Source of the DNA: Basidiobolus meristosporus CBS 931.73
Lineage: Eukaryota; Basidiobolomycota; Basidiobolomycetes; Basidiobolales; Basidiobolaceae
Assembly (NCBI GenBank): GCA_002104905.1
Contig: MCFE01000522.1
Span: 1-62,954 of the forward strand
DNA length: 62,954 nt
Direction of reading: 5' to 3'
Shown: positions 498 to 62,954 of the stretch, piece by piece
Numbering within the stretch: the stretch's first letter is position 1
Layout of the letters: every line of letters begins with the position of its first letter
Notes under the pieces: generated by a model
Told to the model about the DNA's origin: nothing
Databases searched by the model: none
What the model saw: the letters and a program-made list of their open reading frames with translations, nothing else
Made by a program: the position numbers and the translations under genes

Positions 498-552
498 CTC
501 CCACTCAACTATATATCATATCAACTAGTCCTAGTTGTGATCTGGAATATTC
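498..552 (-). pseudogene. Copia H pol 3' end, part 1 (split by G1)
   Basis: The polypurine tract and the last codons of a minus-strand copia pol lie here. The sequence aligns with 51941-52000 of copia A2 (the ACTAGTCCTAGTT and ATATTC blocks). It stops at TATTC, where G1 inserted, and continues at 3869 after the duplicated TATTC. Removing G1 and one TATTC restores the copia order. Confidence 0.75.
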
Positions 553-902
553 TGTTGTAATTATTGAATTGTCACCTAAATATTCATGCTAACTTAGTCA
601 CATAGATCTTATTCTGTGATTAGCATTCTGTCCTGACTAGATTTCTTGTCGGGATTTACTTAGAATATTTTCACCAAATTGTCAGGTACCCAGATTATTA
701 TTTTTCTCAAAGTCGTCCAAAAGACCCCAAACTTTGCACACATATTCTTGGGACCTTCCTTAACAAACTCTACACGTTTGTTTTCCTCTACTTTATCAAA
801 AGTATAAATACCATACTTTTGATCAATAAATCTACAAGTGAATAACATGTAAATCTTCTAGTTCTCCACATCACTTCCAATACTCCTCAGAATATTGCAA
901 CA
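553..902 (+). repeat. G1 5' LTR
   Basis: This 350-bp LTR has TG/CA ends. It contains a TATA-like GTATAAATA inside an inverted repeat (795-823) and an AATAAA (825-830). It is related to family A LTRs (TCGGGATTTACTTAGAATAT, CCCCAAACTTTGCACACAT) but diverged over its whole length. By eye it equals 3514-3863 base for base. Confidence 0.92.
795..823 (+). promoter_or_regulatory. G1 LTR hairpin around the TATA-like box
   Basis: ATCAAAAGTAT (795-805) and ATACTTTTGAT (813-823) are perfect 11-base inverted repeats around a 7-base loop that covers part of TATAAATA. An AATAAA follows at 825. The same architecture with different arm bases occurs in the family A LTRs. The second copy lies in the 3' LTR at about 3756-3784. 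Confidence 0.7.
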
Positions 903-915
903 GGTTATGAGCCCC
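903..915 (+). promoter_or_regulatory. G1 primer-binding site (initiator tRNA-Met type)
   Basis: GGTTATGAGCCCC directly follows the 5' LTR. It is complementary to the anticodon arm of a fungal-type initiator tRNA-Met, not to a tRNA 3' end. This is the half-tRNA priming known from Drosophila copia. The same site follows the copia A and B 5' LTRs. Confidence 0.8.
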
Positions 916-3502
916 AAGCTTGCTGTCCTCTTGGTGTCTACTATGCTTTGGATCCTTTTCTGCTAGTCTGGAGAAAGACTTTCCGCACTATTGCTCTGCT
1001 AAGGTTAAAGAAGACTACCGCTGCTAAAGGACTATGTTTATGAGGATATTGCTGTGGAGAAGAAGGCCTTGCCTTCAAAAGATGCCTTCAGTAACTATCC
1101 AAGTTAGTTATGAAGAAGAGTCAATCAAACTGGCATGTAATTGTGTCAAGAAATATAGTATGTTGGTGCTCTACCACTACTGAAGAAAATTGCGTAATTC
1201 CAGCAATTGAGGGTCCAGATCTACAATGAAATATACTGCAATATGTATTCATATGACCCCAATTGACTGTTAGACGAGCTCTTGGATAGGATATTATCCT
1301 GAATTGCAAAAAAAAAAATATAGATCATTATTAATGATTGCCGGAGGAGGATTTTACCAAAAATCTGTTGCCACTCAAAATACAGCTGAGAATGCAAATA
1401 CTGGAGCTGTTAGCCACCATTCTGGACTATCTACTGATGGAAAAAGATCTCAGAAACAAGCTTCCTGAATTGTAAGGATCCCAATGATATATAATACATA
1501 TATATCCACCTGGAGTACGGATATGTACTACACAATCCATTAGAAGAATGCTATAATTGTATCAAGTGTTTTGATACTGAAACCAGTGTACCAGGAGCTA
1601 AATATGGAGCTGTTAGACGTGCTATCACTCTGTTTAAGTCTCAAAACAGTGGGAGAAAGTATTATACAAATTTAGCAAAATCAACTCATGAAGATTCTAC
1701 CGCCAGCCAAAGGAGTGAAGCATATAATTGCAAGCCTGATTGGAGTATACAACCAAGCAACAGTTGGTCAGTACACAGCTAAGAGCCACTCAGAAGATAA
1801 CACAGTACTTTATACTTGTTATATATATATCACTTATTACAGTGGGAGAAAACACTTGGTGATATTTAACTTCTCTGCATCAGATCAAAAGAATTTTGAT
1901 TGATCAAGTCACCGCCAAGTTCTGCAACTCAAAATACTGATATATTGGAGTCTGATACCGAAGTATTGATGAAGCTAGCTATCAAATGCAGTTTATTTGA
2001 TCAAATTTGGTCAACTCTATCAAAAGTTATGAATGATCTAAGTGGATGCCAAATTTGATTATTTCACTCTCAAATAGTCAGATATTATGGAACAATGATG
2101 TCATGGAGACTCTTGTGCTCAAAAACACCGTGGTCCCACCTTCAAGGCAGTCCAGAACCACCCCACAAAAGGAATTATCCCTGGGTCATCAGCAGAAAAA
2201 GAAAAGAAAAAATGGAAAATACTACTACCGCAAACTAGGGTACTTCCCAAATGGTGCCAAAACTTATGTAGGCCATATTTGGACTATCTGGCAATGCAGA
2301 TATGTTCTATGGAGCCTCTTGTACGAAGTTCTCAAGCTAGAAACCCCAGAAGAGCCTTGAAACTTCAACAGGATCTGTTAGATATTGTAGTATATATTGG
2401 AACAGATTATTTAGTGCAGAAGTCTTGATGTCTGCTGTCTATGGAGCTGAAAGAAAAAGGTGCAAGGATCAACCAGATGGTTTTTATGGATTCTGAAGAC
2501 ACTGAGAAGATCAGTTAGCCTTGGAAACCGAGCTCAAGGTTGAAAATAACTATCAGGAGAATAAGGATAATCAAAGCCCTTGTTAAGGAGAATCTCACTT
2601 CTGGAAAAGCGCCAATCTCTATTCTACAAGTATATTCAGATAAGACAAAAGCAGCTGTATCAATCCAAATCAGTAGAAGCACTCTAAGAATAGCTACCAA
2701 ACAACCCATGGTGTTGTCCAATACCAAACTGGGTAAATCAAGAAGCAAATGGACTTTGAATCTACCGCATATGAAGTAATCAGTCCAAAGAAAGTTATTG
2801 CTATTTAAAGAAGACAAAGATGACCATTCTAGATCATATTTGTGGATCTGAATCACTAAACAGACGTGGTTCAAGTGGGAGCAGGCCATCCCAGCTCAGA
2901 GTTGAGTAAAAACCTTCTTTTTTTGGCCATGTTATATGTGCCACAGTGCCAGGAAACAAGGATAATCCGGATCAGGCGTAAATGACAAAACCTTAACTTG
3001 ACCCAAAGTAGGTCACTATTTTTTACCTCATATAGCATCTATATGATGGAAGTAACTGTCCCTGAGCCTAATATGGACACACAGTGAAGTTGTCTAAATG
3101 GATTAGACTGTTGGCCGGAAATAAGGAAACTCCAGATCTGCCGTAAATGACAAAACCTTAACTTGACCAAAAGTGGGTCAATTTTGCTCAAATAAGAAGC
3201 ATTGGATAGCCCAGAGGCTATATACTATTATTACAATCTGTCAATTAGACTCAGCTTATTATTCAAGCCTGTACAACTGATCAAAGTTGATGATAAGTAT
3301 TATGATCAGATCATTCAGATTTTTAGGCATATTACTAAGTAGATATGCATACTGAATTCCAAGTTACTTATTCTATTAAGTTGAACACAAATTCATACAC
3401 CTTTGGATAATATATTAGTCCAGTATGCAAAACAGTTAAATCTTATACGCTTATTACAGATTGCACACTCACAATATGTATTTATTACTCATGAATATTT
3501 TG
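916..3502 (+). other. G1 internal region without a gag-pol gene
   Basis: From 916 to about 1110 the sequence can be aligned with the family A gag start (GTGTCTACTA, AGGTTAAAGAAGA, GAGGATATTG, GAGAAGAAGG) but with indels and stops. From there to 3502 I recognise no domain. Short motifs recur, such as GGAGCTGTTAG near 1401 and 1609. A 39-base direct repeat lies at 2977-3015 and 3142-3180. A piece of this interior (about 2711-2782) recurs at 51525-51591, so it is a repeat family, not unique DNA. Confidence 0.6.
2977..3180 (+). repeat. 39-bp direct repeat pair inside G1
   Basis: CGTAAATGACAAAACCTTAA begins both copies (2977-3015 and 3142-3180). The copies differ at two positions by eye and both end in GGTCA. 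The 126 bases between them also contain a GCCGGAAATAAGG / GCCAGGAAACAAGG pair upstream of each copy, so the duplicated unit is somewhat longer and more diverged. Function unknown. Confidence 0.75.
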
Positions 3503-3513
3503 TTGAGTGGGAG
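3503..3513 (+). promoter_or_regulatory. G1 polypurine tract
   Basis: TTGAGTGGGAG lies immediately before the 3' LTR and matches the GAGTGGGAG that precedes the 3' LTR in copia A1 (62271-62279). It is the expected plus-strand DNA priming site. Confidence 0.75.
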
Positions 3514-3863
3514 TGTTGTAATTATTGAATTGTCACCTAAATATTCATGCTAACTTAGTCACATAGATCTTATTCTGTGATTAGCATTCTGTCCTGACTA
3601 GATTTCTTGTCGGGATTTACTTAGAATATTTTCACCAAATTGTCAGGTACCCAGATTATTATTTTTCTCAAAGTCGTCCAAAAGACCCCAAACTTTGCAC
3701 ACATATTCTTGGGACCTTCCTTAACAAACTCTACACGTTTGTTTTCCTCTACTTTATCAAAAGTATAAATACCATACTTTTGATCAATAAATCTACAAGT
3801 GAATAACATGTAAATCTTCTAGTTCTCCACATCACTTCCAATACTCCTCAGAATATTGCAACA
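3514..3863 (+). repeat. G1 3' LTR
   Basis: By eye this is identical to the 5' LTR, including the hairpin and AATAAA. It is followed by the TATTC target duplication. Confidence 0.92.
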
Positions 3864-4113
3864 TATTCAAATATGTCTCTGGCTAATGGTTTAGTAAATT
3901 TGTCAGCAGTCATTTCATCTGTAGGACTGTAAACTAAATTAACCAAGTTATTCAGTATATCCTCAAATATGAAACAATGTCTAATATCTATATGCTTAGT
4001 TACAACATGAATAGTTGGACTCCTATCAAATTAAATACCTCCCTGATGATCTCAAAACTGTGTAGTAGGGGCTTTTTACATGAGCCTAGTCACTAAGAAG
4101 CTTTCTTTGCCAC
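3864..4113 (-). pseudogene. Copia H pol 3' end, part 2 (RNase H)
   Basis: This is a minus-strand copia pol C-terminus, aligning with 51990-52250 of copia A2 (AATGGTTTAGTAAAT, TCATTTCATCTGTAGGA, GTCTAATATCTATATGCTTA). In a functional element this part encodes the end of RNase H. It carries stops and small deletions and is cut near 4113, where a plus-strand gag fragment begins. It is the continuation of 498-552. Confidence 0.75.
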
Positions 4114-4365
4114 ATTACCTCTAGGAATCTGTGGGCATTGCATCCATTATTGAGGATGTGCTAGTTACTATCTTGAGTAGCCTAACAGGCTAGTCTTAGG
4201 ACCTTATATCTGCCATAGAGTCCAGAACTAAAAACTTGACCTTCACTTACATATATGGAAGGCTCCTGAACAAAGAATCAAGAAAATCAAATGCCAATAA
4301 GAAGGAAGAATGAATGCTTTAAAAAGCAACAGTGAACAACAAAGGAGATATTCAAGACCCTTTAT
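4114..4365 (+). pseudogene. Copia A6 gag fragment
   Basis: This plus-strand fragment is homologous to 58740-58975 of copia A1, the middle of gag. Shared blocks include AATCTGTGGGCAT, AGAGTCCAGAACT, TATATGGAAGGCTCCTG and CCAATAAGAAGGAAGAA. Stops and a frameshift are present. Both ends are breakpoints, with H pol on the left and the A5 LTR on the right. No LTR of its own is visible. Confidence 0.75.
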
Positions 4366-4713
4366 TTTGTAAGAGTCTCAGAGATATTGGAAGTGATTGG
4401 GAGAACAAGTAGATTATGTGGTTTTCACTTAATCATTTACTGAATGTAAAAGTAGTATTTATACTTCTACATGCTCTTGGCATAACAGGCACATAGAATA
4501 AGCTAAGGAAGGTCCCAAGAGCATGTGTGCAAAGTTTGGGGCTGTTTGGACAACTTTGAGAATTTTCATGTTCTGGGTACCTGGAATTTTGATGAAAATA
4601 TTCTAAGTAAATTCCAATAAGGATTTTGGTCAGCATTCTCTAGGATTTGAAGGTAATGATCTAAGTGACTAAGTTAGGTGAATATTTAGGTGGAAGTACA
4701 AATTTTTACAACA
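4366..4713 (-). repeat. Copia A5 3' LTR
   Basis: A 348-bp family A LTR in reverse complement, from TTTGTAAGAGTCTCAGAGAT to ATTTTTACAACA. It is followed by CTCCCACTCAGCTAAATG, the reverse complement of the polypurine tract. One terminal base is mutated (TT for TG). Confidence 0.85.
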
Positions 4714-6698
4714 CTCCCACTCAGCTAAATGCTCATACTGACTAGTCCTAATTTTGACCTAAGATATTCAAACTTGTCTCTAGCTAATGGTTTGGTAAAT
4801 ATGTCTGCAATCATTTTCATATGGGGAACAGTAGACTAAGTTAACTAAGATATTCTCTATAGCTTCTTGCATGAAATGATGTCTAATATCTATGTGCTTA
4901 GTTCTAGCATGACAAGTTGGATTTCTACCTAATTGTATACATCCTTAATTACCTTGAAATAAATTAATAGCCATGTTTTGATATAGGCCTAAATCTGTAA
5001 AAAGCTTTCTTAACCACATTGCTTCTTTTGTAGCTTCACAGGCTGCCATATATTCTGCCTCTGTGGTGGAAAGTGCTACGGTTGGTTGCTTTCTTGAATT
5101 GCATAAAATTGCTCCTTTACAGTAAAAAAAGGTGTATCCTGTGGTGGATCTTCTGTCTTCCATATCTTGTCCATAATTAGCATCAGAGTATCCCACAAGA
5201 TCTTGTTCTGAATCCTTACAAGTGTATCTCAAGCAGATATTAGCGGTTCCTTTTAGGTATCTAAAGAATGTCTAACTGCTGCAATACAATCAGATCCAGA
5301 GTTTGGATTGTGCTGGCTGAGAACTCCCACTGAGTATGAAATATCTGGACATGTTCCAAGCATGATATACATCAGATTGCCAATCATAGGTTGATAAGGA
5401 AAGTCAGGGCTTTTGGATGACACTAAGCGCTCTTGATTTAGTTGAGTTTTGACCAAGTTAAGGTTTGTCTCTATTGGGGTAGCTGCTGGTTTAGAGTCTT
5501 CCATTTTGTACTTCTTTAGTATATCTTGAATATACTTGGATTGGCTTAGGGTGATAGTCTGGGTACTTCTGTCTATGGAGAACTTTATCCCTAAGTAGTA
5601 ATTGAGTTCTCCTAGATTGGACATCTTGAACTCCTTAGATAGGCTGGATTTAGTCTCTTCCAATGTTGCTAGATTATTGGTGGCTACAATAAAATCATCC
5701 ACATATAGAGCTAACAGAACTGCATTTGCTCTATCTGGCTTATAGTATATACTATAGTCAGCATTACTCCCTTTGAAACTCAAAGATTCCAAATAAAAAA
5801 TCTATTTTGCAATTCCAGGCTGTCAGTGATTTTTTCAGACCATATAGAGATTTATTAAGCTTGCAGACCAAATGGGGGTAATCTTGATCAACAAACCCAT
5901 CAGTCTGGTCCACATACATGTCCTCATCAAGTTCTCCATTCAAAAATGCAGCTTATACATCTGTTTGATGAATAAAAAACTGATATTTGGCTGCAATAGC
6001 CAATATTAATCTAATGGAATTAAACTTGGCTACTGGTGCCTGTTGTAAAAATTTGTATTTCCACCTAAATATTCACCTAACTTAGTCACTTAGATCATTA
6101 CCTTCAAATCCTAGAGAATACTGACCAAATTCCTTGTTGGGATTTACTTAGAATATTTTCACTAAAATACCAGGTACCCAGAACATGAAAATTCTCAAAG
6201 TTGTCCAAACAGCCCCAAACTTTGCACACATGTTCTTGGGACCTTTCTTAACCTATTCTACGTGTTTGTAATGCCAAGACCAGGTAAAAGTATAAATACT
6301 ACTTTTACATTCAATAAATCATTAAGTGAAAACCACCTAATCTACTTGTTCTCCAAATCACTTCCAATATCTCCAAGACTCTTACAACAGTGCCAAGGTC
6401 TCAGTATAGTCAAGTCCTTTTGTTTGAGAGTATCCTTTGGCCACAAGTCTTGCTTTGTATCTTTCAATTGTACCATTAGCCTTATACTTTGTCTTAAAGA
6501 CCCCTCTGCATCCAATTGATTTCTGGTTGATTGGTAATTTGACAAAGTCCCAATTTTGATTTTCCATCAGAGTCTGATATTCCTCAGTCATTGCAGATCT
6601 CCAAAACATGGTCTGAGGGCTATTGAGGGCCTCTTTTACAGTCTGGGGTTCATCAATATAGACTGAATAGGCAAAGGCTAAGTTTGTACCCTCATTGA
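4714..6698 (-). pseudogene. Copia A5 pol remnant (RT and RNase H), interrupted by a solo LTR
   Basis: Read from 6698 down, the minus strand encodes the family A reverse transcriptase start (about 6609-6395), then a solo LTR (6041-6389), then the rest of RT and RNase H (6040-4714). The RT active site reads YVDDF where A1 has YVDDL, followed by the NADYSIYYK-type context upstream. RNase H motifs DANYGQDMEDRRSTTGYTF and ALSTTEAEYMA are readable near 5190 and 5060. Several frameshifts and stops break the frame, so it is dead. Everything upstream of RT (gag, protease, integrase) is missing, because the A4 3' LTR starts at 6699 inside the coding region. Confidence 0.8.
6041..6389 (+). repeat. Solo copia A LTR inside A5 pol
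   Basis: A complete 349-bp plus-strand family A LTR with TGTTGT/CAACA ends. The target GTGCC is duplicated on both sides (6036-6040 and 6390-6394). No internal sequence remains, so an element inserted here and its two LTRs later recombined. Removing it rejoins the A5 reverse transcriptase. Confidence 0.92.
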
Positions 6699-15804: not shown

Positions 15805-16256
15805 CAACCTTTTTGGTCTGGACCATGCTTGTGAGCTGGGGGATGGGTTTTGTCTGGGTTGTACTAAAGATGAGTTAAGGCTTGGTATGGGGACTATAGC
15901 AACAGATTTGGATACTTATACAGCAGTATATTGGCATCAACCTGGTCTTATATGAAATATATATGAAAACTAATGTGATTGTTGAATTTTCCATATATTA
16001 TGCATGATGCATCTTGGATTGCGTTGACACAGATCAGATCACATCAATTGCAGATTTCCTATTTGATTATAGACCTATGATTAAAGCATCAATAAAAGTA
16101 CCAAGGCATTGTTTGCAGATGATTTTCGCAAAATAATGATGGGATACATGACAATTGATGGAGATTTAACCATAATGTATTAAGAATCAGATAAACAACG
16201 TAGGTTGCGCCAAATCAATTCAAACAGCCTCCATACAATCATCCACCAATTTTGAT
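15805..16256. promoter_or_regulatory. Divergent intergenic region of Harbinger-1
   Basis: The 452 bases between the starts of the second gene (minus) and the transposase (plus) must hold both promoters. They are AT-rich, with ATATATATG-type runs at 15958-15966 and TTGCGTTGACACAGATCAGA at 16019-16038. No specific element can be assigned. The equivalent region of Harbinger-2 is 28857-29309. Confidence 0.45.
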
Positions 16257-17180
16257 ATGACTTATTCATCTGAATGGTCTTTTCTCATCAATCCCATCAC
16301 TACCACCGCATTTCCTTTTGACACACTAGAGGAGATCTATTCCAAGTACTGTGAACCATCAACCCCAATCTACTTGAGGAGATCCCTTGTTAAGCTTCTC
16401 TGCTATTACAAGAACTATTGCCCTACAAGGTTTCATCCCACCATCCATGGCAACAAAAGTCCTAGAAGCTTTCATTCCCAGCTGACAGCAATGGAGAAAC
16501 ACCTTGCAGAGGGTATAAATGACTTAGAGAAAGCTTGGAATACTAGGTTCAGAAGCTCCAATAGACTTCCATATCCCAGAGTGTTCAGCAACAGGTTCCA
16601 TATCAGGAGTATTTTGGATACCTTCCCAGTGAGGATGAACAGACCTTCTAGAGGGCAGAGGCACTTCTATTCTGGCAGGTACAAGGCACACTGTGTGAAG
16701 TTTCAAGCACTGTCTGACATTGAGGGTAACATCATCTGGTTTAGTGGGCCAATTGCTGGAAGTAGGCATGACAAAGCACTCTTGGTAGAGAATCATCCTG
16801 AATTCAGTAGAGGGGAGAAATGTACGACAGACTTATCCTATATAGGGGAGGATTGTCAGAGATTAGGATGTATTACAGCTTATAGGAAGCCAAGGAATGA
16901 TGTGCTTAGCAGGAAGCAGAAGCTCTACAATGAGATATTTAATCATTTCAGAGTGAGGATAGAGCACGCATTTGGATATCTGAAGAGATTCAGCATATTG
17001 GCAGGTAAATACAGAGGAAAGTCATATATAGGAGAAAACAGCAGAATAGGTAAAATAGTTAAGATACTTATTAATGCACAGTATGTTCACACAAGAAGAC
17101 ATCCACTGAGAGAAATGTGTCTGGAGCATTATGAAGAGTTAATAAAGCAAGGAAAGCACTACTCTGAGCAACATAAGTAA
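16257..17180 (+). CDS. PIF/Harbinger DDE transposase
   Basis: An uninterrupted 307-codon frame, somewhat short for the family. It resembles HARBI1/DDE_Tnp_4 transposases. ILDTFPVRMNRP (Asp121) matches the first catalytic Asp context. GPIAGSRHDKALL (Asp172) matches the GS.HD block. FNHFRVRIEHAFGYLKRF (Glu236) matches the last catalytic Glu block. The enzyme would cut at the terminal repeats and make 3-bp target duplications, as seen around this element and the two fold-back elements. The ATG at 16257 is the first in frame. An upstream exon or longer N-terminus cannot be excluded, because HARBI1-type proteins often have a helix-turn-helix start; LVKLLCYYKNYCPTRFH (residues 44-60) may be part of it. 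No stop or frameshift is visible, unlike every other transposon gene nearby. Confidence 0.82.
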   Translation: MTYSSEWSFLINPITTTAFPFDTLEEIYSKYCEPSTPIYLRRSLVKLLCYYKNYCPTRFHPTIHGNKSPRSFHSQLTAMEKHLAEGINDLEKAWNTRFRSSNRLPYPRVFSNRFHIRSILDTFPVRMNRPSRGQRHFYSGRYKAHCVKFQALSDIEGNIIWFSGPIAGSRHDKALLVENHPEFSRGEKCTTDLSYIGEDCQRLGCITAYRKPRNDVLSRKQKLYNEIFNHFRVRIEHAFGYLKRFSILAGKYRGKSYIGENSRIGKIVKILINAQYVHTRRHPLREMCLEHYEELIKQGKHYSEQHK

Positions 17181-35459: not shown

Positions 35460-35476
35460 TGGTAGCAGTGATAAAC
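35460..35476 (+). promoter_or_regulatory. Gypsy C2 primer-binding site
   Basis: TTGGTAGCAGTGATAAAC starts at 35459-35460. TGGTAGCAG complements a tRNA 3' end of the type CTGCTACCA, which fits some initiator tRNA-Met 3' ends. The complementarity is short. Confidence 0.55.
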
Positions 35477-35516
35477 AGAAACCTCCCTCCTGAAGAAAGA
35501 AGAAACCACCCTCAAG

Positions 35517-38500
35517 ATGTTGGACAATCAAGAATGGAAGAATGCCATGCAGCAAATCCTGGCCCAACAGCAACAGTTACTCCAGATCCTCAGCCAACAG
35601 CAACAAGGAATGACTACCATGGCTCAGAACCAGCAAAGCCCTGTTAAGAGCAACTTTAGTGTGAAGGTCAACCGGTACCATGGCAGAGTCAATCAAAACC
35701 TGGGAACTTGGCTCTTTAAGATTGAAGAAGCTTTTAAAGCTAAAGGAATTGCTTCAGAAAGCAAGTTGCATTATGCAGCTTCCTACCTGACAGATGCAGC
35801 TTTACAGTGGTACCACAACAAGATCAGGTCGGCCACTATGATGGGATGCTCTACAATCTCTACCTGGGATGAGTTTGTGTTGGAAATTCAGAATGCTTTT
35901 GAACCTCCACACCAGCAGCCACTACTAAGAAGGAAGTTAAAGATACTCAGACAGAAAGGAATGGTGCAAGAATACATCTATGAGTACAGATGTCTACTTG
36001 GACAAATTGAAAGAATGGACCCCTTAGATCAAGTTGAATACTTTATTGATGGGTTGAAAGAAAGAACTTGCAAGGAAGTCAATTACCGAAGACCTCAGAC
36101 TATTGAAGCAGCCATCAAGATTGCCATTGACTATGACTCAGCTATGTTTGGAGTTGGGAAGCCTATAGTGACTAATCAGAAAGGCTACAATCATTATGAA
36201 AGAAGACAATCAGAAGCAGTACCAATGGAAATAGATGCTATGCAGAAGAATCCTACCTCAGAAGAATGTAAGAAGAAAGGACTTTGTTTCAATTGCCACC
36301 AGCAAGGACATATTGCAAAGTACTGCCCTCAGAGAAGAAATGGACACCAGCCAACAAGAACCTTAAACCATATTGAGTCCCATGAACACAGTAATGTGGA
36401 AGATGAGCTTGAAGAAGACTTGGAACTCACCTTCCATATGACAGAAGAGTACTTGTCCCAAATGACCTCAAACTCAGGGAAGTTATTGTACTTGAATGGA
36501 GTAATCAATGGAGTACCTGCTAAGATCATGATTGACTCAGGAGCATTGCATGAGTACATGTTGGAGCAATTTGCCTTGAAAGCTGGAATCAACTCGGAAC
36601 CTACCAAATCAACTTCAGTCTCCACCGCTGATGGGAACTCTCACATAATCAACCTTATTAGCCAGCCAGTAAGAATGAAGATCAATAACTATGAAGAAGA
36701 CCTACAGGCTTATATATTTGGGAACTGCAAGTTTGACCTTGTACTTGTAAAAACCTGGCTATTTTGTTGTAATCCATCAATCAACTGGAGAACCCATGCA
36801 ACTCAGATCCAAAAGGACAACAAGACCTATGAGCTATTACCTGCCAGGCTGGATTTCAACTTGGTCAATTCCAGTATGTGTGAGACAAGTGAACTTGGCA
36901 AGACCCAGTTCTGTAGAGCGCTTAGAAAAGGCACTCAGATGTTCCTCATGGCGGTTTTACAGGAGGATTCCTCTACCCCAGCACCCCAGCAGGTCCAGAC
37001 TCTCTTGAAGAAATATATGGACGTGTTTCCAGATGAGCTTGTAAGCCTACCACCAGTCAGAGACATGGATCATGCCATTGACACAGGAGATAGCCCTCCA
37101 GTCAGCAAAACACCTTACAGAATGAGTCCATTGGAATTGAAGGAAATGAAGAGACAAATTGATCAGCTATTGGAGCAAGGATACATCACGCCCAGAAAGT
37201 CACCCTGGGGAGCACCAGTGCTTTTTGTGAAAAAGAAGGATGGAACACTTAGGACGTGCATTGACTACAGAGCCCTGAACCCAGTTACCGTCAAGAATAA
37301 GTACCCCATACCTTGGATTGATGAGCTTTTGTACCAACTTAATGGATCCACTATTTTCAGCAAGATTGACCTCATGTCAGGATACAACCAGATTAGGGTG
37401 AAGCCAGAAGATATCCCTAAGACAGCATTCAGAACCAGATATGGACATTACGAGTACTTAGTCATGAGTTTTGGCCTCACCAATGCCCCTGCAACTTTCA
37501 TGACCCTGATGCAGACTGTCTTCCAGGAGTACTTAGACAAGTTTGTGATAATCTACCTAGATGACATATTGATATACAGCAAGACAGAAGAGGATCATTT
37601 GGTGCACATTGAAAAGGTCTCAAAGAACCTAAGAGAGAACAAGCTTTATGGCAAGCTACCCAAGTGTGAATTCTTCAAGGAACAAGTTGAATACCTGGGA
37701 CACAGAGTGACTAGCACAGGAGTGACCTTAGACCCCAAGAAGGTGGAAGTAATCAAGAATTTGAAGCAGCCCTATAGCATATCAGAACTCAGATCATTCC
37801 TTGGAATGGTTTCCTATTATTGGAGATTTGTCAAGTCTTTTGCAAGTATTGCAGTTCCTTACACTGATATCCTCAAGAAAGACAATACCTACAAGTGGGA
37901 CATAGCTTGTGAGACTGCCCTCCAGATGCTCAAGAATGAACTTGCTAAGCTGCCAAGCTTAAGAATACCAGACTTCAGAAATGAGTTCACTCTGTGCATA
38001 GATGCTTCAGATTATGCAATTGGTGGAGTGCTGAACCAAGAACACAAGGGAAAGGACTACACTGTTGCCTTTGAATCCAAGAAACTGAACTCAGCAGAAC
38101 AAAACTATCCAGTCCATGAGAAGGAGATGCTTGCTATAATACACTGTTTGAAGACATGGAGATGCTATATTGAAGGAGTCAAATGCACTGCGAAGACTGA
38201 TCATGCCTCCCTCAAGTATATATTTACTCAGAAGGTACTCTCTAGAAGAATGACAAGATGGAGTGAATACATTCCGCAATTTGACCTGGAGATTGTCTAC
38301 TGCCCTGGAAAAAACAACACGGTTGCTGACGCCTTAACAAGATTGGATCAAGCTGCACAACTCAACTTGGTGCATGAATCAGATTGGCCTAGCCTATTAC
38401 CAAAGTTCTTGGAGGACCAAGCCATTCCTAATGAGGTGGATGAAGATATCAAGAAGATAATCCATGATGAAGCCAGCAAATTTGTTGTACAGGATGAAAC

Positions 38501-38560
38501 ACTCTACCAAATTGTTGATGGAAGCCTATTGCCTATTGTCCTTATGTTGCTTGCCTGAAT
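35517..38560 (+). pseudogene. Gypsy C2 gag-pol polyprotein (open to RNase H)
   Basis: A continuous 1013-codon frame. Gag: Gln-rich start (residues 1-45), capsid-like [13 protein letters not shown] (about 92-104) and a long retrotransposon gag core. Zinc knuckle [14 protein letters not shown] begins at Cys257. Retropepsin [12 protein letters not shown] has Asp340. RT has YLDD at residues 680-683, and RNase H has [13 protein letters not shown] with Asp829. These replicate the element RNA into DNA inside the particle. The frame then shifts near 38520: the next frame reads CPYVACLNL and HNGYGHLGIEG, the integrase zinc domain, and is cut by copia B1 after 38610. Gag through RNase H looks intact. 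The element fails because the integrase is broken in several ways. Confidence 0.86.
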
Positions 38561-38992: not shown

Positions 38993-39015
38993 GATTGCCT
39001 TAATCTATTCTAAAG

Positions 39016-42000
39016 ATGACTTCTACCAGCAAACAAAGCAATACCAACATCTTCCCTGTAAAGGAGAGGTTTGATGGGAAGAACTACAGACTTTGGAGAA
39101 TCAAGATGCAGATCCACCTTGAGGAAAGAAAGCTTTGGAACATAGTAACAGGAAAGGAAGTTGAGCCCAAAGGAACAGCAGAAGATGTGGAGAAGTTTCA
39201 AGAGAAGGAGAGAAAGGCCTTCAATGCAATATGCATCAATGTGCAAGACTCCTTCATTGGACAAATCCATGCCTCAAATACTGCCAAAGCAGCATGGGAA
39301 TCCTTAGAGAAGATCTTTAGAGCAAAGTCAGTATCAAGCAAGCTTTATTTGAAACAAAAGTTTTTCAACATGAGAAAAAAGCCAGATGATGACATGCTAC
39401 AACTCATTACCAGAATGGAGACACTTGCAGAAGAACTTTACAGTATTAATGCTGGTGTAGATGATGAAGAAAAGATACTCTGTCTGCTTTGCAGCCTACC
39501 AGACGAGTATGAGCCACTCATACTTTCTTTTGAAAGCAGAGAAGACAACTTGACTTTAGACTATGTCAAAGGAAGACTTCTCCATGAAGAACTCAGACGT
39601 AATGATCAAGCAGAGAAAATTGAAGAGAATGCTTTATTCAGCTCAGAGAGGCATACAGAAAAGAAGGGAAAGCAACAAAACCGAAGAAAACCTGGCTGCT
39701 GTAACTACTGTAAGAAACCAGGACACTGGGCAAGAGAATGCAAGAAGAAACAAGCAGACGAAAAACAGAAACTAGAGCAGGCAAACCATATAACTACTGA
39801 TGAACAGCTATTTGTCACTGTACAAGAGAGTGCAAGTAACCAAAGTAATGAGTGGTATATTGACTCTGGAGCATCACAGCATAATTGTGGTATAAAGGAT
39901 TGGTTCAGCAACTTAAAGACTATTCCCGTAAGAAAGGTTTATCTGGGAGATAACTCTGCATTGGAAGCTACCGCCAGTGGGTCTATACAACTAAATATGA
40001 GTAATAACTCAGGGGCAACAACAGCAAAACTGACTGACGTACTCTATGTACCTGGAATAGCTTAGAACCTACTCTCAGTCAGTAAAGCAACTACTCAGGG
40101 ACTGAAATTTGTTTTTACTAAGCTGAGCTGCTCAATATTGAGTGAAAATGGACAAAAATTAGCTTTGGGAATCAGAGATCACAATATATACAAGTTACAA
40201 TGCAAGATCATTGTACCTGAGTATGTCAACATTGCTGAAACTGATGAAACCAACTGGGAGACGTGGCATAGGAGGCTAGGACACATAGGGGAACAGAAAA
40301 TGAGCCAATTGGTGAAAAATCAGCTTGTTTTGGGCCTAAAATACTCAATTCCGATCAAATTGAATGTTTGTAAGGGATGTTCAAATGGCAAACAAGCTAG
40401 GCAACGTTTCAAGAGCTCAGAAGGCATCAATACCACCGAAATTTTGGCTATTGTACACTCAGACATATGTGGCCCCATGAGAACACTGTCCTTTGGAGCC
40501 AAGAGATACTTTATGACGTTTATTGATGACAAGACAAGATATACATGGGTGTACTTCCTCAAAACAAAGGATGAAGCTTTAGAGACGTTTAAGCACTTCA
40601 AAAACATGGCAGAAACACAAACTGGGTGTAAATTGAAGGTACTACGAAGTGACAATGGAGGAGAATACTGCTCAAAGGAGTTTGCAAAATACTGCTTGTC
40701 TACTGGTATACTTCAACAGACCACAGTTCCTCATACTCCACAGCAAAATGGAGTAGCAGAACGTGCAAACAGAACAATAGTAGAGATGGGAAGATCTATG
40801 CTACATGATAAGGGAATGAACTACAAGTTTTGGGCTGAATCTGTTGCTACCGCTGTATACATCAAGAACAGATGCCCAACAACAGCACTACGTGATTCTA
40901 CACCCTTTGAAGCATATACAGGCAAAAAACCAGATCTCCAGCACCTCAGGATCTTTGGCAGTGATGCTTTTTATCACATCACTGACAAAAAACGCTCAAA
41001 GTTGGAACCAAAGAGTAGAAAAGGGATCTTTCTTGGGTATTGTGAGGATACTAAAGGGTATAGAGTGTATGATGGCGAAATTCAGAAGCTGATCAAGAGC
41101 AGGGACGTTGTATTTGAGGAAAATTCAGATCAGAAAGCCACAGAAATCATTGGCCAGCTGCCTGATGATGCAATCAACACAAATGAAGAAGATACAAACC
41201 AAATCCAGCCATAGATGGAAGATACTTCTACCAGTTCCAGATCAGAACAGATTATCCCAGTTCGGAGATCTACCAGAATAAGAAATGCCCCTGGATCCTG
41301 GTGGCAGACATCCAATGATCATGAAGAAGCTTATCTTGCCTTATGTGCCGAACCTCAGAATCTGGAACAGGCAATGCAAGGTCCAGATGCTACTAAGTGG
41401 CAACAAGCCATGCAGGAGGAGTACCAATCACTGATCAAGGCAAAAACGTGGGAACTGGTAGATTTACCAAATGGGAGAAAGCCAATAGGATGTAGATGGG
41501 TCTACAAGATTGAGATAACCTCAAATGGTGCCGTTGATAAGTACAAGGCTAGATTGGTAGCTAAAGGCTATTCCCAGATCCAGGGACTAGACTTTAAGGA
41601 AACATTTGCTCCGGTTGCCAAGTTTAACTCTATTAGGACAGTTCTAGCCCTGGCAGCTGTACACAGTTTAGATCTACACCAAATGGACGTCAAAACAGCC
41701 TTTCTAAATGGGGATTTGCAAGAAACTATATATATGGAGCAACCAGAAGGTTTTACCAATCCAAAAAGCCCCTATAAGGTGTGCAAACTTAGAAAATCGT
41801 TGTATGGGCCTAAGCAGGCACCCAGAGCATGGTATAACAAGATTGACACATATCTAGAGGAAATTGGGTTCTCTTGTAGCACTGCAGATCACAGTATATA
41901 TGTGAAACAGCTCAAAAAGGGTGTGATCATCCTAGTTCTTTATGTGGACGACCTAATTATAGCTACAAGTGATCAAGAGGCACTTAAACAGACGAAATCA

Positions 42001-42929
42001 GATCTCTTCAGCAAGTTTGAGATGAAAGATCTTGGAAAATTGAGCTATTTTCTTGGAATTGAGGACAAATTTGACATACCTACGCAGAAAATTGTGCTGA
42101 ATCAGTCTAAGTACATCAGGGACATTCTTAGACGCTTCAAAATGGAAAATTGCAAGCCTGCAGCAACCCCTATGGACAATAACCTAAAATTAAGCAAATC
42201 TCAGCCAGTTATAGATGAAAACGGCTCAAATATGGACCAAAACTTTCCCTATCAATCAATGGTTGGTAGCCTAATGTACTTGATGGTGTCTACACGTCCA
42301 GATATTGCAGTAGCAGTTGGAATAGTCAGTCAATTCATGCAGAATTATGGATCAGATCAAATTGCAGCAGTTAAGCGGATTTTCAGATATCTACAAGGTA
42401 CCATAAATATGGTACTGGAATACTCTGGAGCAGCAAATAGGCAAAAATTTGATGGTTATAGTGATTCAGATTGGGGTAGGGATTTGATTGACAGACGCTC
42501 TACCACAGGCTATGTATTTCTTTATGCTGGTGCAGCTATTACTTGGATTGCAAGAAACAACCAACTGTGGCACTATCTACAACTGAAGCCGAGTATATGG
42601 CTGCATGTCAAGCAACTAAGGAGGCTATATGGCTACAAAAATTATTCAAAGACTTAGGTTTTAATTCAGGTGAACCAACATGTATTTACAAGGATACTCA
42701 AAGTTGTATTTCATTAGCTAGAAATCCTACTAATCATGCCAGAACTAAGCACATTGATACACAGCATCACTTTGTGAGGGAAGCTGTAGAAAATAACTTA
42801 GTGGAGCTGGTTTACTGCCCAACTGACAAAATGGTGGCAGACATATTGACAAAACCACTAGCTAGGCCACAGTTTGAGATCCTTAGAGAGAAATTGGGAT
42901 TAAGAAATTATTTAGTTGAGGGGGAGTGT
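39016..42929 (+). pseudogene. Copia B1 gag-pol polyprotein
   Basis: One frame from ATG 39016 to about 42540, then +1 to TGA near 42930. Gag includes KNYRLWRIKMQIHLEERKLW (about residues 24-43) and the knuckle CNYCKKPGHWAREC from Cys229. Protease WYIDSGASQH has Asp283. GAG-pre-integrase is WHRRLGHIGEQKM. The integrase DDE is Asp483 (HSDICGPM), Asp546 (RSDNGGEY) and Glu582 (NGVAERANR); the last two are 35 residues apart, the D35E hallmark. RT has YVDD at 976-979. RNase H is DSDWGRDLIDRRSTTGY. Defects: TAG at 40063-40065 (AAG in B2), TAG at 41212-41214, and one A missing near 42545 (ITWIARN for ITWNCKK). All catalytic residues are present. Confidence 0.88.
42915..42926 (+). promoter_or_regulatory. 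Copia B1 polypurine tract
   Basis: GTTGAGGGGGAG immediately precedes the 3' LTR. It overlaps the end of the coding frame. Confidence 0.8.
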
Positions 42930-50588: not shown

Positions 50589-51525
50589 AGTTACTTCTGC
50601 TGAACCAGCTGACAATGACCCACATAAAGTGCCTCCACCACTGGAGCCTTTGACAAGTAAAAGAACTTGTAAGCATGTGGCACTTCAAGCTGGTTCTGCT
50701 ACATCATCTGGATCAGTTCAGCACATCCAAGCTCCAGCACTGCACTCCTCAACAAGGAGGCATAATACTGACTACAAGTACACATGTAGCCAAGGTCATA
50801 GTCAACAAGGAAGTAGTTCAGGTGTGCAAAGTGAATCACTACCAAGTGCTTCAGTAGTATTTCCTGTGAGAAAAAAATCTAGAAGAAGACAATGCAATTG
50901 CATTGAATTGTTACCATTTACCATGATCCTACATAATGCATTTTTTTGCAATCCAAAACAAGCCATTGCAAATCAATGATCACTAAATTTTAGTTATAAG
51001 TAATGTCAAGGTCATCTCACATTTGAGTTCAAGCCCCAATAATAATCATCCTGCATATGTATACATCATCTGTAACACCAGTGCAGCTATTTGATCTGAT
51101 TTGAACCTACACAATTAGTTGCATTCTTGCTATGACACCTTGTCCAATCACTAGGGTCAGGGATTTACCTCCTCAATGGACAAAATGGAATATTTGATGG
51201 CAAGTCAGGTAGCTTGTGTATTGGTCAATGAGCCAATTGGGGGCTAACAGCTTCATAATACTTTTATACCAATCAACCATTGATACACCATCTAATTGGA
51301 GTGATGGTAACCAACATGGTAAGTATAAGTGTAGTTTATAGTATGATAAGCATTTATTTCCATTAATATTGAAAAACATATCCAAATACCATATTTTACC
51401 TACCAAATAATGGTATCCAACTGCACACATGATGCAAGCATTACAAGCTGGTGCAATTGTCCATGCCAACCTCATTGTGTCAGACTATGCCATAGTGTGC
51501 AAGATTGCCCCACATGGTACAAAAT
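50588..51525 (+). mobile_element. Harbinger-3 fragment
   Basis: Homologous to 30140-31090 of Harbinger-2. It keeps the C-terminal part of the second gene (50588-50979: ADNDPHKVPPPLEPLTSKRT, STRRHNTDYKYTCSQ, RKKSRRRQCN) and about 550 bases toward the terminus (TAATGGTATCCAACTGCACA and following). Both ends are broken. The true terminal repeat is missing; it stops near CATGGTACAAAATTG. Confidence 0.78.
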
Positions 51526-51591
51526 TGTCCAATACCAAACTGGATAAATCAGGAAGCAACTGGACTTTGAATCTACAGTAAATGATGTAAT
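51525..51591 (+). repeat. Fragment of G1-family interior
   Basis: TTGTCCAATACCAAACTGG, GAAGCAACTGGACTTTGAAT and the following bases match 2712-2785 of G1. It ends at the A2 LTR. It shows that a second G1-type interior exists outside G1. Confidence 0.75.
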
Positions 51592-57941: not shown

Positions 57942-58291
57942 TGTTGTAAAAATTCGTATTTTCCACCTAAATATTCACCTAACTTAGTCACTTAGATCAT
58001 CACCTTCAAATCCTAGAGAATACTGACCAAATTCCTTGTCGGGATTTACTTAGAATATTTTCACCAAAATACCAGGTACCCAGAACATGAAAATTCTCAA
58101 AGTTGTCCAAACAGCCCCAAACTTTGCACACATGTTCTTGGGACCTTCCTTAACCTATTCTACGTGTTTGTAATGCCAAGACCATGTAAAAGTATAAATA
58201 CTACTTTTACATTCAATAAATCATTAAGTGAAAACCACATAATCTACTTGTTCTCCCAATCACTTCCAATATCTCCAAGACTCTTACAACA
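57942..58291 (+). repeat. Copia A1 5' LTR
   Basis: TGTTGTAAAAATTCGTATTT to GACTCTTACAACA, with a TATA-centred hairpin at 58184-58212 and AATAAA at 58215-58220. This is the best reference LTR for family A in the window. Confidence 0.92.
58184..58212 (+). promoter_or_regulatory. Copia A LTR hairpin around the TATA-like box
   Basis: ATGTAAAAGTA (58184-58194) and TACTTTTACAT (58202-58212) pair perfectly over 11 bases around the loop TAAATAC. The TATAAATA box spans the stem-loop boundary. AATAAA follows three bases on, so both transcription start and polyadenylation signals sit next to the hairpin. Confidence 0.7.
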
Positions 58292-58304
58292 GGTTATGAG
58301 CCCC
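58292..58304 (+). promoter_or_regulatory. Copia A1 primer-binding site overlapping the gag start
   Basis: GGTTATGAGCCCC. Its ATG (58296-58298) is in frame with gag (MSPELSLSAMSTTAITG). The site complements the anticodon arm of initiator tRNA-Met, whose CAU anticodon pairs with this ATG. Confidence 0.8.
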
Positions 58305-61300
58305 GAGCTGTCACTCTCTGCAATGTCTACTACTGCTATTACTGGAATTTTTCCCTCTGCTGAAAAGTTGGATGGATCTAACTACCAAGTGTGGAAGGTG
58401 AAGATGAAGATGCTGCTACAAGAAAGAGGCCTTTGGGATATTGTCATGGGAGAAGAATGCCCTCCTAAAAACGTGGGAGAGGAAGCCTTGAAGTACCAGA
58501 AGAAAGAACAAAGTGCCTTTAACTGCATTTGCCTTAATGTCAAGGACAAATTGCTAATTCAATGCTCAAGAGCAAAAACGGCAAAGAATGCCTGGAAAGC
58601 ATTAGAAGACACCTACCAGTCATGTTCAGCTGCCAAGAAAATGTATCTGAGAAGAAAATTCTTTACTACAAAGATGCTGCCAGGAGAAGAAATGAAAAAT
58701 CTAATTAACAGAATTACCCTGCTGGTAGATGAGATGGAATCTGTGGGCGTACCAACTACTGATGAGGATGTGATAGTTACCATCCTGAATAGCCTGACAG
58801 ACAAGTTTCAGGGCCTTGTATCAGCCCTAGAGTCCAGAACTGAAGATTTGACCTTAAATTACGTATATGGAAGGCTCCTGGATGAAGAATTAAGAAAATC
58901 AAGCGCCAATAAGAAGGAAGAAGAAAATGCTTTAATAAGCAATGATAACCAACAAAGGAGGTACCCAAGACCCTACAAAGGCAACAGCAACCTATTTTGC
59001 AACTACTGCCAAAGGAAAGGACACACATCAGACCGATGTTTCAAAAAGAGAGATTATCAGCAAAAGAAGCCTGAATATGGAAATGCTGTAACAACTGAAG
59101 ATAGACTATTCATATCTGCACTAAATATGACCACAAACAAGGATTCTCAGACGTGGTATATTGACTCTGGAGCTTCTCAACACTTTACACACCAAAAAGA
59201 ACTTTTTACCCAATATCAAGAAATTCCAATTAAGAAGGTTTTCATGGGTGACGATAGAACACTTGATGCAGTGGGAGAAGGAACTATCCAAGTAAACCTT
59301 AGAAGCAGTAAAGGAAGCCATACACTGACCTTTAAAGAAGTACTCTATGTACCAGAAATAGCCAAGAACCTACTCTCTGTAAGCAAGGCCACAGCAGAAG
59401 GACTCAGTTTCAGTTTTGACAATTCTGGATGCAGGATCACTGATCAAAATGGTGCCCATATTGCTTCGGGCATCAGAGATCAGAACCTATACAAGTTGAC
59501 TTATATTCCATCATATCTGGAAGCCAATATAAGTAACTTAAATGAAGAAACACCAATGCTTTGGCACAGGAGATTTGGACACATCAATTTTGATTATTTG
59601 CGTAAAATGATCAAAGATCAGCTAATTTCTGGAGTGAAAATTGATCCCCCAGCTATTTTGGAGCACTGTGAAGCCTGCATATATGGGAAACAAGCCAGAC
59701 AACTGTTCAAGAGCTCTGGGTTAATCAAAACTAAGAAAAAATTAGATCTAATTCACTCAGATCTGTGTGGACCTATGCAAAATTTATCCTTAGGCGGGAT
59801 GAAGTATTTAATCACTTTTATTGATGATTATACAAGATACACATGGGTCTACTTCATGGAGAGAAAGGAAGAAGCTCTGTCTAAGCTCAGGGAGTTCAAA
59901 GCCATGGTGGAGAGAGAAACTGGTGAAAAAATCAAGAAAATACGCTCTGACAATGGTGGAGAATATACCTCAAAACTCTTCATCCACTTCTGCAAAATTC
60001 ATGGGATAAAGCAAGAGACTACTGTACCATACTCCCCACAGCAAAATGGAGTAGCAGAACGAGCTAACAGATCAATAATTGATATGGCAAGATCTATGAT
60101 CCATGATCAAAAATTATCCTATGATTTTTGGGCGGAATCAGTTGCCACTGCTGTATACCTTAAAAATAGGAGTTATAACAGAATACTTCGTGATTCTACT
60201 CCATTTGAAGCATGGTATGGATACAGACCAAGTGCAGAACATCTAAGAATATTTGGGTGTACAGCATATGCCAAAAAAACTGGCCGGAAATCAGTCAAAA
60301 TTTGAGCCAAAAAGTGTAAAATGCATATTTTTGGGCTACTGCAATGAGAGTAAGGCATACAGACTCTACAATACCGAAGCAAAGAAGCTGATCAAGTCCA
60401 GGGATGAGTTGTTTGATGAAAATTCAAAATTTTCACAAAAAATGACATCAGATGATGACGAAAATTTGATCTCAAGTCCACCAATTGTCAGGATTGAATC
60501 AGAGCAAAACAATGAAAATTTTTTCACTCCAGAGGACTCTACAACCGTGGTTCAGCCAGAATCAGTGCCCAGGAATATCCCAGAAGTGATCATTCCAGTA
60601 TCAAATGCCCGGAGATCCAATCGGACAAGAAATAGCCCAAATTACTATATCAATGAGGGTACAAACTTAGCCTATGCCTATTCAGTCCATGTTGATGAAC
60701 CCCAGACTGTAAAAGAGGCCCTAAATAGTCCTCAGACAAAGTTTTGGAGATCTGCAATGACTGAGGAATATCAGGCACTGATGGAAAATCAAACTTGGGA
60801 CTTAGTCAAATTACCAATCAACCAAAAATCAATTGGATGCAGATGGGTCTTCAAGACAAAATACAAGGCTGATGGTACAATTGAAAGATACAAAGCAAGA
60901 CTTGTAGCCAAAGGATACTCTCAAACAAAAGGACTTGACTATACTGAGACCTTTGCACCGGTAGCCAAGTTTAATTCCATCAGATTAATATTGGCTATTG
61001 CAGCCAAATATAAGTTTTTTATTCATCAAATGGATGTAAAAACTGCATTTTTGAATGGAGAACTTGATGAGGACGTGTATATGGACCAGCCTGATGGGTT
61101 TGTTGACCAAGATAACCCCCATTTGGTCTGCAAGCTTAAAAAGTCACTATATGGTCTCAAACAATCACCAAGAGCCTGGAATTGCAAGATAGATTCTTAT
61201 TTGGAATCTTTGAGTTTCAAAAGGAGTAATGCTGACTATAGTATATACTATAAGCCAGATAGAGCAAATCCAGTTCTATTAGCTCTATATGTGGATGATC

Positions 61301-62268
61301 TTATTATAGCCGCCAATAACCTAGAAACATTGGAAGAGACTAAATCCAGCCTATCTAAGGAGTTCAAGATGTCCGATCTAGGAGAACTTAGTTACTACTT
61401 AGGGATTAAGTTCTCCATAGACAGAAGTACCCAGACTATTACCCTAAGCCAATCCAAGTATATTCAAGATATACTAAAGAAGTACAAAATGGAAGACTGT
61501 AAACCGGCAGCTACCCCAATGGAGACAAACCTTAACTTGGTCAAAACTCAACCAAATCAAGAGAGCTTGGTGCCATCTGAAAGCCCTGACTTTCCTTATC
61601 AATCTATGGTCGGCAGTCTGATGTATATCATGCTTGGAACACGTCCAGATATCTCATATTCAGTGGGAGTTGTCAGCCAACATAATCAGAATTATGGATC
61701 TGATCATATTGCAGCAGTTAAGCGGATTTTTAGATACCTAAAAGGAACTGCTGATATCTGCTTAAGATACACTTATAAGGATTCAGAACAGGATCTTGTG
61801 GGATACTCTGATGCTGATTGGGGACGAAATTTAGAAGACAGAAGATCCACCACAGGATACACCTTTCTTTACTGTAAAGGAGCCATTTCATGGAATTCAA
61901 GAAAGCAACCAACCGTAGCACTTTCTACTACAGAGGCAGAGTATATGGCAGCCTGTGAAGCTACAAAAGAAGCAATGTGGTTAAGAAAGCTCTTTACAGA
62001 TTTAGGCCTATGTCAAAAAACGCCTATTACTTTATTTCAAGATAATCAAGGATGTATACAATTAGGTAGAAATCCAACTTTTCATGCTAGAACCAAGCAC
62101 ATAGATATTAGACATCATTTCATACGTGAAGCTATAGAGAATAACTTAGTTAGCTTAGTTTACTGTCCTACAGATGAAATGATTGCAGACATATTTACCA
62201 AACCATTAGCTAGAGACAAGTTTGAATATCTTAGGTCAAAATTAGGACTAGTCAGTATGAACATTTAG
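58296..62268 (+). pseudogene. Copia A1 gag-pol polyprotein (one frameshift)
   Basis: First part 58296-60305 (669 codons), second part about 60280-62268 in another frame. An A7 run (60273-60279), A6 or equivalent in other copies, is the only lesion seen. Gag has KLDGSNYQVWKVKMKMLLQE and the knuckle CNYCQRKGHTSDRC from Cys235. Protease WYIDSGASQHFTH has Asp290. GAG-pre-integrase is LWHRRFGHINFDYL, with a zinc His at 424. The integrase DDE is Asp489 (HSDLCGPM), Asp552 (RSDNGGEY) and Glu588 (NGVAERANR), spacing D35E. The second part has RT MDVKTAFLNGELDEDVYMDQ and YVDD (61288-61299), RNase H ADWGRNLEDRRSTTGYTF and ALSTTEAEYMA, and ends at TAG 62266-62268. A Met at 58323 is an alternative start. 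It is the likely source of enzymes for the family, if a sister copy lacks the extra A. Confidence 0.92.
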
Positions 62269-62270
62269 CT

Positions 62271-62279
62271 GAGTGGGAG
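62271..62279 (+). promoter_or_regulatory. Copia A1 polypurine tract
   Basis: GAGTGGGAG directly before the 3' LTR, two bases after the gag-pol stop codon. Confidence 0.8.
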
Positions 62280-62629
62280 TGTTGTAAAAATTTGTATTTT
62301 CCACCTAAATATTCACCTAACTTAGTCACTCAGATCATCACCTTCAAATCCTAGAGAATACTGACCAAATTCCTTGTCGGGATTTACTTAGAATATTTTC
62401 ACCAAAATACCAGGTACCCAGAACATGAAAATTCTCAAAGTTGTCCAAACAGCCCCAAACTTTGCACACATGTTCTTGGGACCTTCCTTAACCTATTCTA
62501 CGTGTTTGTAATGCCAAGACCATGTAAAAGTATAAATACTACTTTTACATTCAATAAATCATTAAGTGAAAACCACATAATCTACTTGTTCTCCAAATCA
62601 CTTCCAATATCTCCAAGACTCTTACAACA
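62280..62629 (+). repeat. Copia A1 3' LTR
   Basis: Differs from the 5' LTR at three positions by eye (TTTGTA for TTCGTA, CACTCAG for CACTTAG, CTCCAAAT for CTCCCAAT). Confidence 0.92.
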
Positions 62630-62954
62630 CAAACCGGCAGCTACCCCAATGGAGACAAACCTTAACTTGGTCAAAACTCAACCAAATCAAGAGAGCTTGG
62701 TGCCATCTGAAAGCCCTGACTTTCCTTATCAATCTATGGTTGGCAGTCTGATGTATATCATGCTTGGAACACGTCCAGATATCTCATATTCAGTGGGAGT
62801 TGTCAGCCAACATAATCAGAATTATGGATCTGATCATATTGCAGCAGTTAAGCGGATTTTTAGATACCTAAAAGGAACTGCTGATATCTGCTTAAGATAC
62901 ACTTATAAGGATTCAGAACAGGATCTTGTGGGATACTCTGATGCTGATTGGGGA
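62630..62954 (+). pseudogene. Copia A9 pol fragment (RT end and RNase H start)
   Basis: Starts at AAACCGGCAGCTACCCCAAT, the codons for KPAATPM, and is nearly identical to 61500-61825 of A1 (about one difference by eye) to the window end at SDADWG. It is open in one frame over this length. The 5' boundary coincides with the end of the A1 3' LTR. It continues outside the window. Confidence 0.85.

Follow-up and report, generated by a model that had tools for sequence, protein, structure and literature searches.

The element at positions 553-3863 of the window, the 62,954-nt stretch of Basidiobolus meristosporus contig MCFE01000522.1 analyzed here, is very probably a recent copy of a mobile, non-autonomous family of copia-type LTR retrotransposons; this family (G1) would be a relative of the copia A family that has no coding sequence of its own and is moved by copia A. 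The parts of G1, a remnant of its interior and the copia A copy of the same window are listed below in window coordinates.

548..552, + strand: left target-site duplication, TATTC.
553..3863, + strand: G1 element, 3311 nt.
553..902, + strand: 5′ LTR of G1, 350 nt, with TGTTG...CAACA ends.
903..915, + strand: primer-binding site of G1, GGTTATGAGCCCC, of the half-tRNA type, with 13 nt of complementarity to the anticodon arm of initiator tRNA-Met.
903..950, + strand: relic of the copia A gag start in G1; weak similarity may reach 1075.
903..3513, + strand: interior of G1, non-coding and family-specific, 2611 nt.
2952..3022, + strand: internal direct repeat of G1, copy 1, 86% identical to copy 2.
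3117..3185, + strand: internal direct repeat of G1, copy 2.
3504..3513, + strand: polypurine tract of G1, TGAGTGGGAG; the ATGAATATTT just before it resembles the copia A pol end.
3514..3863, + strand: 3′ LTR of G1, identical to the 5′ LTR.
3864..3868, + strand: right target-site duplication, TATTC.
51525..51591, + strand: remnant of the G1 interior, 67 nt, abutting another copia LTR.
57942..62629, + strand: copia A copy with LTRs at 57942-58291 and 62280-62629 (3 differences); its family is the likely helper.

The first-pass annotation had described G1 as an element with two identical 350-bp LTRs and a flanking TATTC duplication, and both features are present: the sequences at 553-902 and 3514-3863 are 100% identical over 350 nt, and TATTC stands on either side of them. 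The fragment of the same interior that it had placed at 51525 was also recovered, as a 67 nt match with 89.6% identity (E = 1.7e-19). Around the internal direct repeats, the calculated RNA structure gave no signal (z = -0.65).

The proposed match of the primer site, polypurine tract and LTR plan to those of copia A was likewise borne out. The LTRs of G1 and copia A are 77% identical, with the same length and the same ends, and the blocks conserved between them include TATAAATA and AATAAA, which we take to have promoter and poly(A) roles. The primer site GGTTATGAGCCCC, common to both elements, is complementary to a 13-nt stretch within the anticodon arm of the host's initiator tRNA-Met; this exact tRNA stretch occurs at 11 places in the assembly, 5 of them on one contig, and ARAGORN called a tRNA-Met at the one of these loci that was retrieved. 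The polypurine tract TGAGTGGGAG is also shared, and the last bases before it resemble the end of copia A pol. The decayed gag start reported for the interior is real, as the first ~45 nt after the 5′ LTR align to the copia A gag start, but it is short, with a similarity that extends perhaps to 173 nt into the interior (nhmmer, E = 4.8e-5). Because G1 and copia A clearly share only the LTR blocks, the half-tRNA primer site, the leader of ~45 nt and the polypurine tract, their comparison would narrow the cis needs of a copia element.

The 2611 nt interior has no detectable coding capacity, in agreement with the earlier statement that it carries no pol. The longest stop-to-stop stretch in G1 is 126 aa; across 34 aligned interiors of the family, the longest such frame is 174 aa, which lies on the minus strand of a single copy. 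In the four older copies that were aligned (90-94% identical), no frame exceeds 126 aa. Neither gag nor pol was detected in G1 by tblastn, by a reverse transcriptase (RT) profile, by a Pfam scan of 10 frame pieces or in the stop-to-stop frames. In particular, the 10 pieces scanned, out of 95 from the interior, gave no Pfam match above the curated cut-offs; the two weak matches that fell short of them (E = 0.015 and 0.026) look like chance, and nothing else reached E<=1. When all 95 pieces were compared with the window by tblastn, the matches listed contained weak leftovers only, with E-values of 0.007 and above. The RT profile, made from 120 copia RT proteins, reached at best E = 1.9 in the six frames of G1 and in loci L056, L059 and L108; it clearly detected pol at 3864-6475, a decayed copia relic adjoining G1, which thus serves as the positive control of a test run without a negative control. 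Further, nhmmer returned two weak same-strand matches between the interior and copia A pol (E = 0.027 to 0.24), which were unrepeated in the older copies L108 and L110, while the reversed interior, used as a control, gave no match at E<=1. Altogether, tblastn, the RT profile, Pfam and nhmmer yielded no firm pol remnant in the interior outside the leader and the 51525 fragment. As the aligned older copies are equally gene-less, the interior was probably already without genes before they inserted.

A small functional protein encoded at 2519-2776 or 2037-2425 would be compatible with this explanation, and is improbable. In its favor, the differences among the four older copies at 2519-2776 number 13, 25 and 37 at codon positions 1, 2 and 3 (34, 17 and 43 in the overlapping minus-strand frame), and the stretch is free of indels in six of eight older copies. 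Yet the skew shrinks to 27, 33 and 38 when each variable site is counted once across 43 sequences, three other frames tested have no excess at the third position, and five of the eight older copies contain a stop or a frame break within 2519-2776. Moreover, a word search returned no homologue for the candidates, and no Pfam family matched them above its cut-off.

The same interior recurs many times in the host assembly (89.0 Mb in 1311 contigs), whose RPB2-like fragment matches a Basidiobolus meristosporus protein with 100% identity across 95% of the query, ahead of further hits near 64% that begin with a second B. meristosporus protein (CBS 931.73). Similarity searches with the LTR and three interior pieces, in which the best 40 of 2745, 192, 203 and 188 candidate places were scored, returned many copies that are 98-99% identical to G1. 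The 5′ junction of G1, defined by a 35-nt pattern of LTR end, primer site and 15 nt of interior with <=3 mismatches, is found 87 times; a wider pattern without the further interior letters has 96 matches, of which 16 were new by eye, and the union of the two patterns is 103. The 3′ junction is found 60 times, and 5′ junctions of the copia A type are found 1251 times (<=2 mismatches). One additional LTR pattern has 19 places, which is not a total, as it misses most G1 copies, probably through a 1-nt gap. By hand count, ~42 of the 87 junctions lie inside sequence that was read, and the other 45 are known from the 35-nt match. Among the 16 additional 5′ junctions, 15 run on into the G1 interior; in three of these, other sequence takes over after only 52-95 nt. 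The sixteenth (L079) departs from G1 after ~20 nt into a repeat that is also present beside the G1 copies L045 and L048, and has no match to copia A and B proteins better than E = 0.084. At the opposite end, 17 junctions were picked by eye, mainly outside the copies already read, and every one of them contains G1 interior, in three cases just 53-67 nt of it.

Within the copies and junctions read, there is no G1-LTR element with pol and no G1 interior joined to a pol of its own. The 11 gag-bearing loci chosen for a G1-like LTR end all carry copia A LTRs, which are 81-96% identical to those of copia A and 68-75% identical to those of G1, in some cases over part of the LTR. The first-pass annotation had allowed for two outcomes of an assembly-wide count, and the searches returned many copies with the same interior, matching LTRs and target duplications, none of those read having pol; with 87 5′ junctions, G1 is not a single decayed copy, and no full-length relative combining the same interior with pol was seen in the sequence examined.

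Repeated independent insertion is evident among these copies. The 40 stretches retrieved, together with G1, provided 35 LTR pairs under the filter; eight of the 40 loci are without a complete pair and stand outside this number (L034, L047, L052, L053, L056, L058, L059 and L060). Target duplications of 5 bp flank 26 of the 35 pairs, and in 14 pairs the LTRs are without any difference. The nine pairs lacking a duplication comprise four in tandem arrays (L021 and L022) and those at L026, L029, L051, L054 and L055. Moreover, 13 of the 26 duplication-bearing copies have an empty-site match, where the joined flanks form an unbroken stretch of another window repeat; the match of G1 itself is copia A sequence with 79% identity. 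Among the 13 copies without such a match, the flanks of L039 and L046 are too short to test well. Further, 20 LTR loci include six solo LTRs with duplications (L004, L005, L006, L009, L010 and L014) and one without (L008), while L007 may be another solo LTR, inserted at an LTR edge.

Several loci have a more complex organization. The arrays at L021 (C535) and L022 (C1295) have the order LTR-interior-LTR-interior-LTR and are probably products of LTR-LTR recombination or of tandem insertion. At L034 (C927:39500-46100), two G1 copies are inverted face to face, both truncated at the center, either as a structure or as an assembly join. In both L032 and L047, an LTR with ~78% identity to the G1 LTR, a value in line with copia A LTRs, lies in the interior at one shared position (about 2051-2055), and L109 holds a nested copia element.

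The family contains both young and old copies. Among 30 young interiors, the mean difference is 0.94% (0 to 1.8%), with L035 often the nearest relative; L045 and L046 have zero substitutions in 2614 aligned sites, differ by indels only, and have different target duplications. Four older copies are 90-94% identical across the full interior, and identity drops to about 78% in end stretches some 200-345 nt long. As identical or near-identical copies coexist with 90-94% interiors and ~78% ends, the G1 lineage is, judged by these divergences, one that has been mobile recently and over a long time. A further and rather doubtful proposal sees in G1 a long-lived lineage of parasites whose LTRs evolve on their own and whose 2.6-kb interior favors the packaging or stability of its RNA over that of copia A; an RNA advantage given by the interior would then account for gene-less persistence from about 78% to 100% identity.

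The copia A copy of the window had been credited with intact enzymes at 57942-62268, which is not the case: its gag-pol is split into stop-to-stop frames at 58017-60305 and 60247-62268, and the copy lacks a matching 5-bp duplication. As longer unbroken frames are present elsewhere, the description may instead fit the copia A family. In particular, of the 150 copia A RT loci that were scored (the best of 5682 candidates), 45 by hand count are in a 1416-aa frame, as judged by length alone, and a copia A helper for G1 is therefore likely to be available in the genome. Separately, the sequence at 61501-61800 is repeated with 100% identity at 62631-62930, just outside the copia A 3′ LTR, which suggests that one copia A element is nested in another there.

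The shared cis sequences point to a dependence of G1 on copia A specifically. The family would have originated when a copia A relative was stripped of its coding region, with only the LTRs, the primer site, the polypurine tract, a few gag codons and the last bases of pol retained in cis. Most likely, G1 RNA would be transcribed from the LTR promoter, packaged in the Gag of intact copia A elements, and reverse transcribed by copia A RT from a cleaved initiator tRNA-Met primer, after which the copia A integrase would insert the product with a 5-bp duplication. As identity between the G1 and copia A LTRs is only 77%, another helper, absent or unseen, is possible.

Such a helper could have been an autonomous sister family with the same LTRs as G1, extinct, unseen or outside the assembly, in which case copia A would be a cousin. 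This is unlikely, although the 77% identity between the LTRs, the age of the lineage (end stretches down to about 78%) and the ~45 of 87 junctions known from 35 nt alone are in its favor. The junctions that were read on tell against it, as they hold G1 interior at 15 of the 16 additional 5′ sites and at all 17 of the 3′ sites, six of these for a short stretch only; L079 offers no copia protein match better than the value given above, and the 11 gag-bearing loci selected for their G1-like LTR end turned out to carry copia A LTRs. Moreover, copies with identical LTRs indicate recent movement, so that a helper would be expected to survive to this day, and the abundant candidate with open frames is copia A.

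It is far less probable that G1 is a decayed copy, or a decayed family, of ordinary copia elements without being a mobile unit of its own. The relic of the gag start and the pol end would fit such decay; in contrast, the same non-coding interior has been copied dozens of times at 98-99% identity with independent duplications, and even the four older copies lack a frame above 126 aa. Similarly, there is very little probability that the G1 copies are segmental duplicates or assembly artefacts. Shared flanks at L054 and L055 and the tandem arrays at L021 and L022 would fit this reading, but the 5-bp duplications at 26 of 35 pairs and the empty-site matches for 13 of these 26 contradict it for those copies.

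In its classification, G1 combines TG...CA LTRs and a target duplication with a primer-binding site and a polypurine tract adjoining the LTRs, and with multiple independent insertions of the same interior; the 5-bp duplication, the half-tRNA primer site and the LTR similarity to a copia element make it a derivative of the copia superfamily. It resembles copia A in LTR length and plan, primer site, polypurine tract, first gag codons and the bases just ahead of the polypurine tract, and differs in lacking the gag-pol that copia A has and in an LTR that is 77% identical. Drosophila copia and yeast Ty5 are autonomous elements, in contrast to G1 with its lack of detectable genes. Both are described (PMC5371799, PMC10886601) as using the half-tRNA (anticodon) priming that G1 shares. 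According to PMC6696364 and PMC10886601, LARD and TRIM elements have LTRs, a primer-binding site, a polypurine tract, target duplications and a non-coding interior, all of which G1 has, and are thought to be mobilized in trans; PMC3248453 states that non-autonomous LTR elements parasitize a related functional element. With 3311 nt, G1 is below the LARD range of over 4 kb and fits the wide TRIM range of up to 4 kb, both as given in PMC6696364, and exceeds the strict TRIM limit of under 1 kb given in PMC10886601. The Helenus TRIMs, as presented in PMC10886601, are also fungal, have 5-bp duplications and primer sites that, like that of G1, resemble those of copia elements using tRNA anticodon loops, and have been proposed to be mobilized by copia-type elements. 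Helenus LTRs hold tRNA-like sequence, whereas none was detected in those of G1, which is also far longer. ARAGORN, run with bacterial settings, called no tRNA in the window, and Rfam had no match in 545-3870 at E<=1; a much diverged tRNA relic could escape these searches.

Overall, the earlier label of a LARD/TRIM-like parasite of copia A stands as far as it denotes a non-autonomous mobile family, while its size lies between those of the usual TRIM and LARD and copia A is its putative helper; the evidence gives good support to G1 as an apparently new family of a known type. A G1-like family in Basidiobolus was not found in the titles and abstracts of the literature searched, a body with few subscription journals and with Repbase outside its scope. 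Gene-less parasites of the G1 type are already known, and G1 is a clear, large and long-lived example. Together with copia A, it offers a clean natural pair in an early-diverging fungus, in which one copia family is abundant and has open frames and its relative is gene-less; the age range of the G1 copies bears on how a gene-less element can outlast the sequence turnover of its helper.

Basidiobolales are rich in transposable elements (PMC10386755), and the window contains several others. A single open frame of 1027 aa contains the gag, protease, RT and RNase H domains of a Ty3/gypsy-type element at 35475-38558. A second copia family is present at 39004-42657; its gag and RT domains lie in successive open stretches with stops between them. 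A DDE_Tnp_4-type transposase occupies an open frame of 334 aa at 16176-17180.
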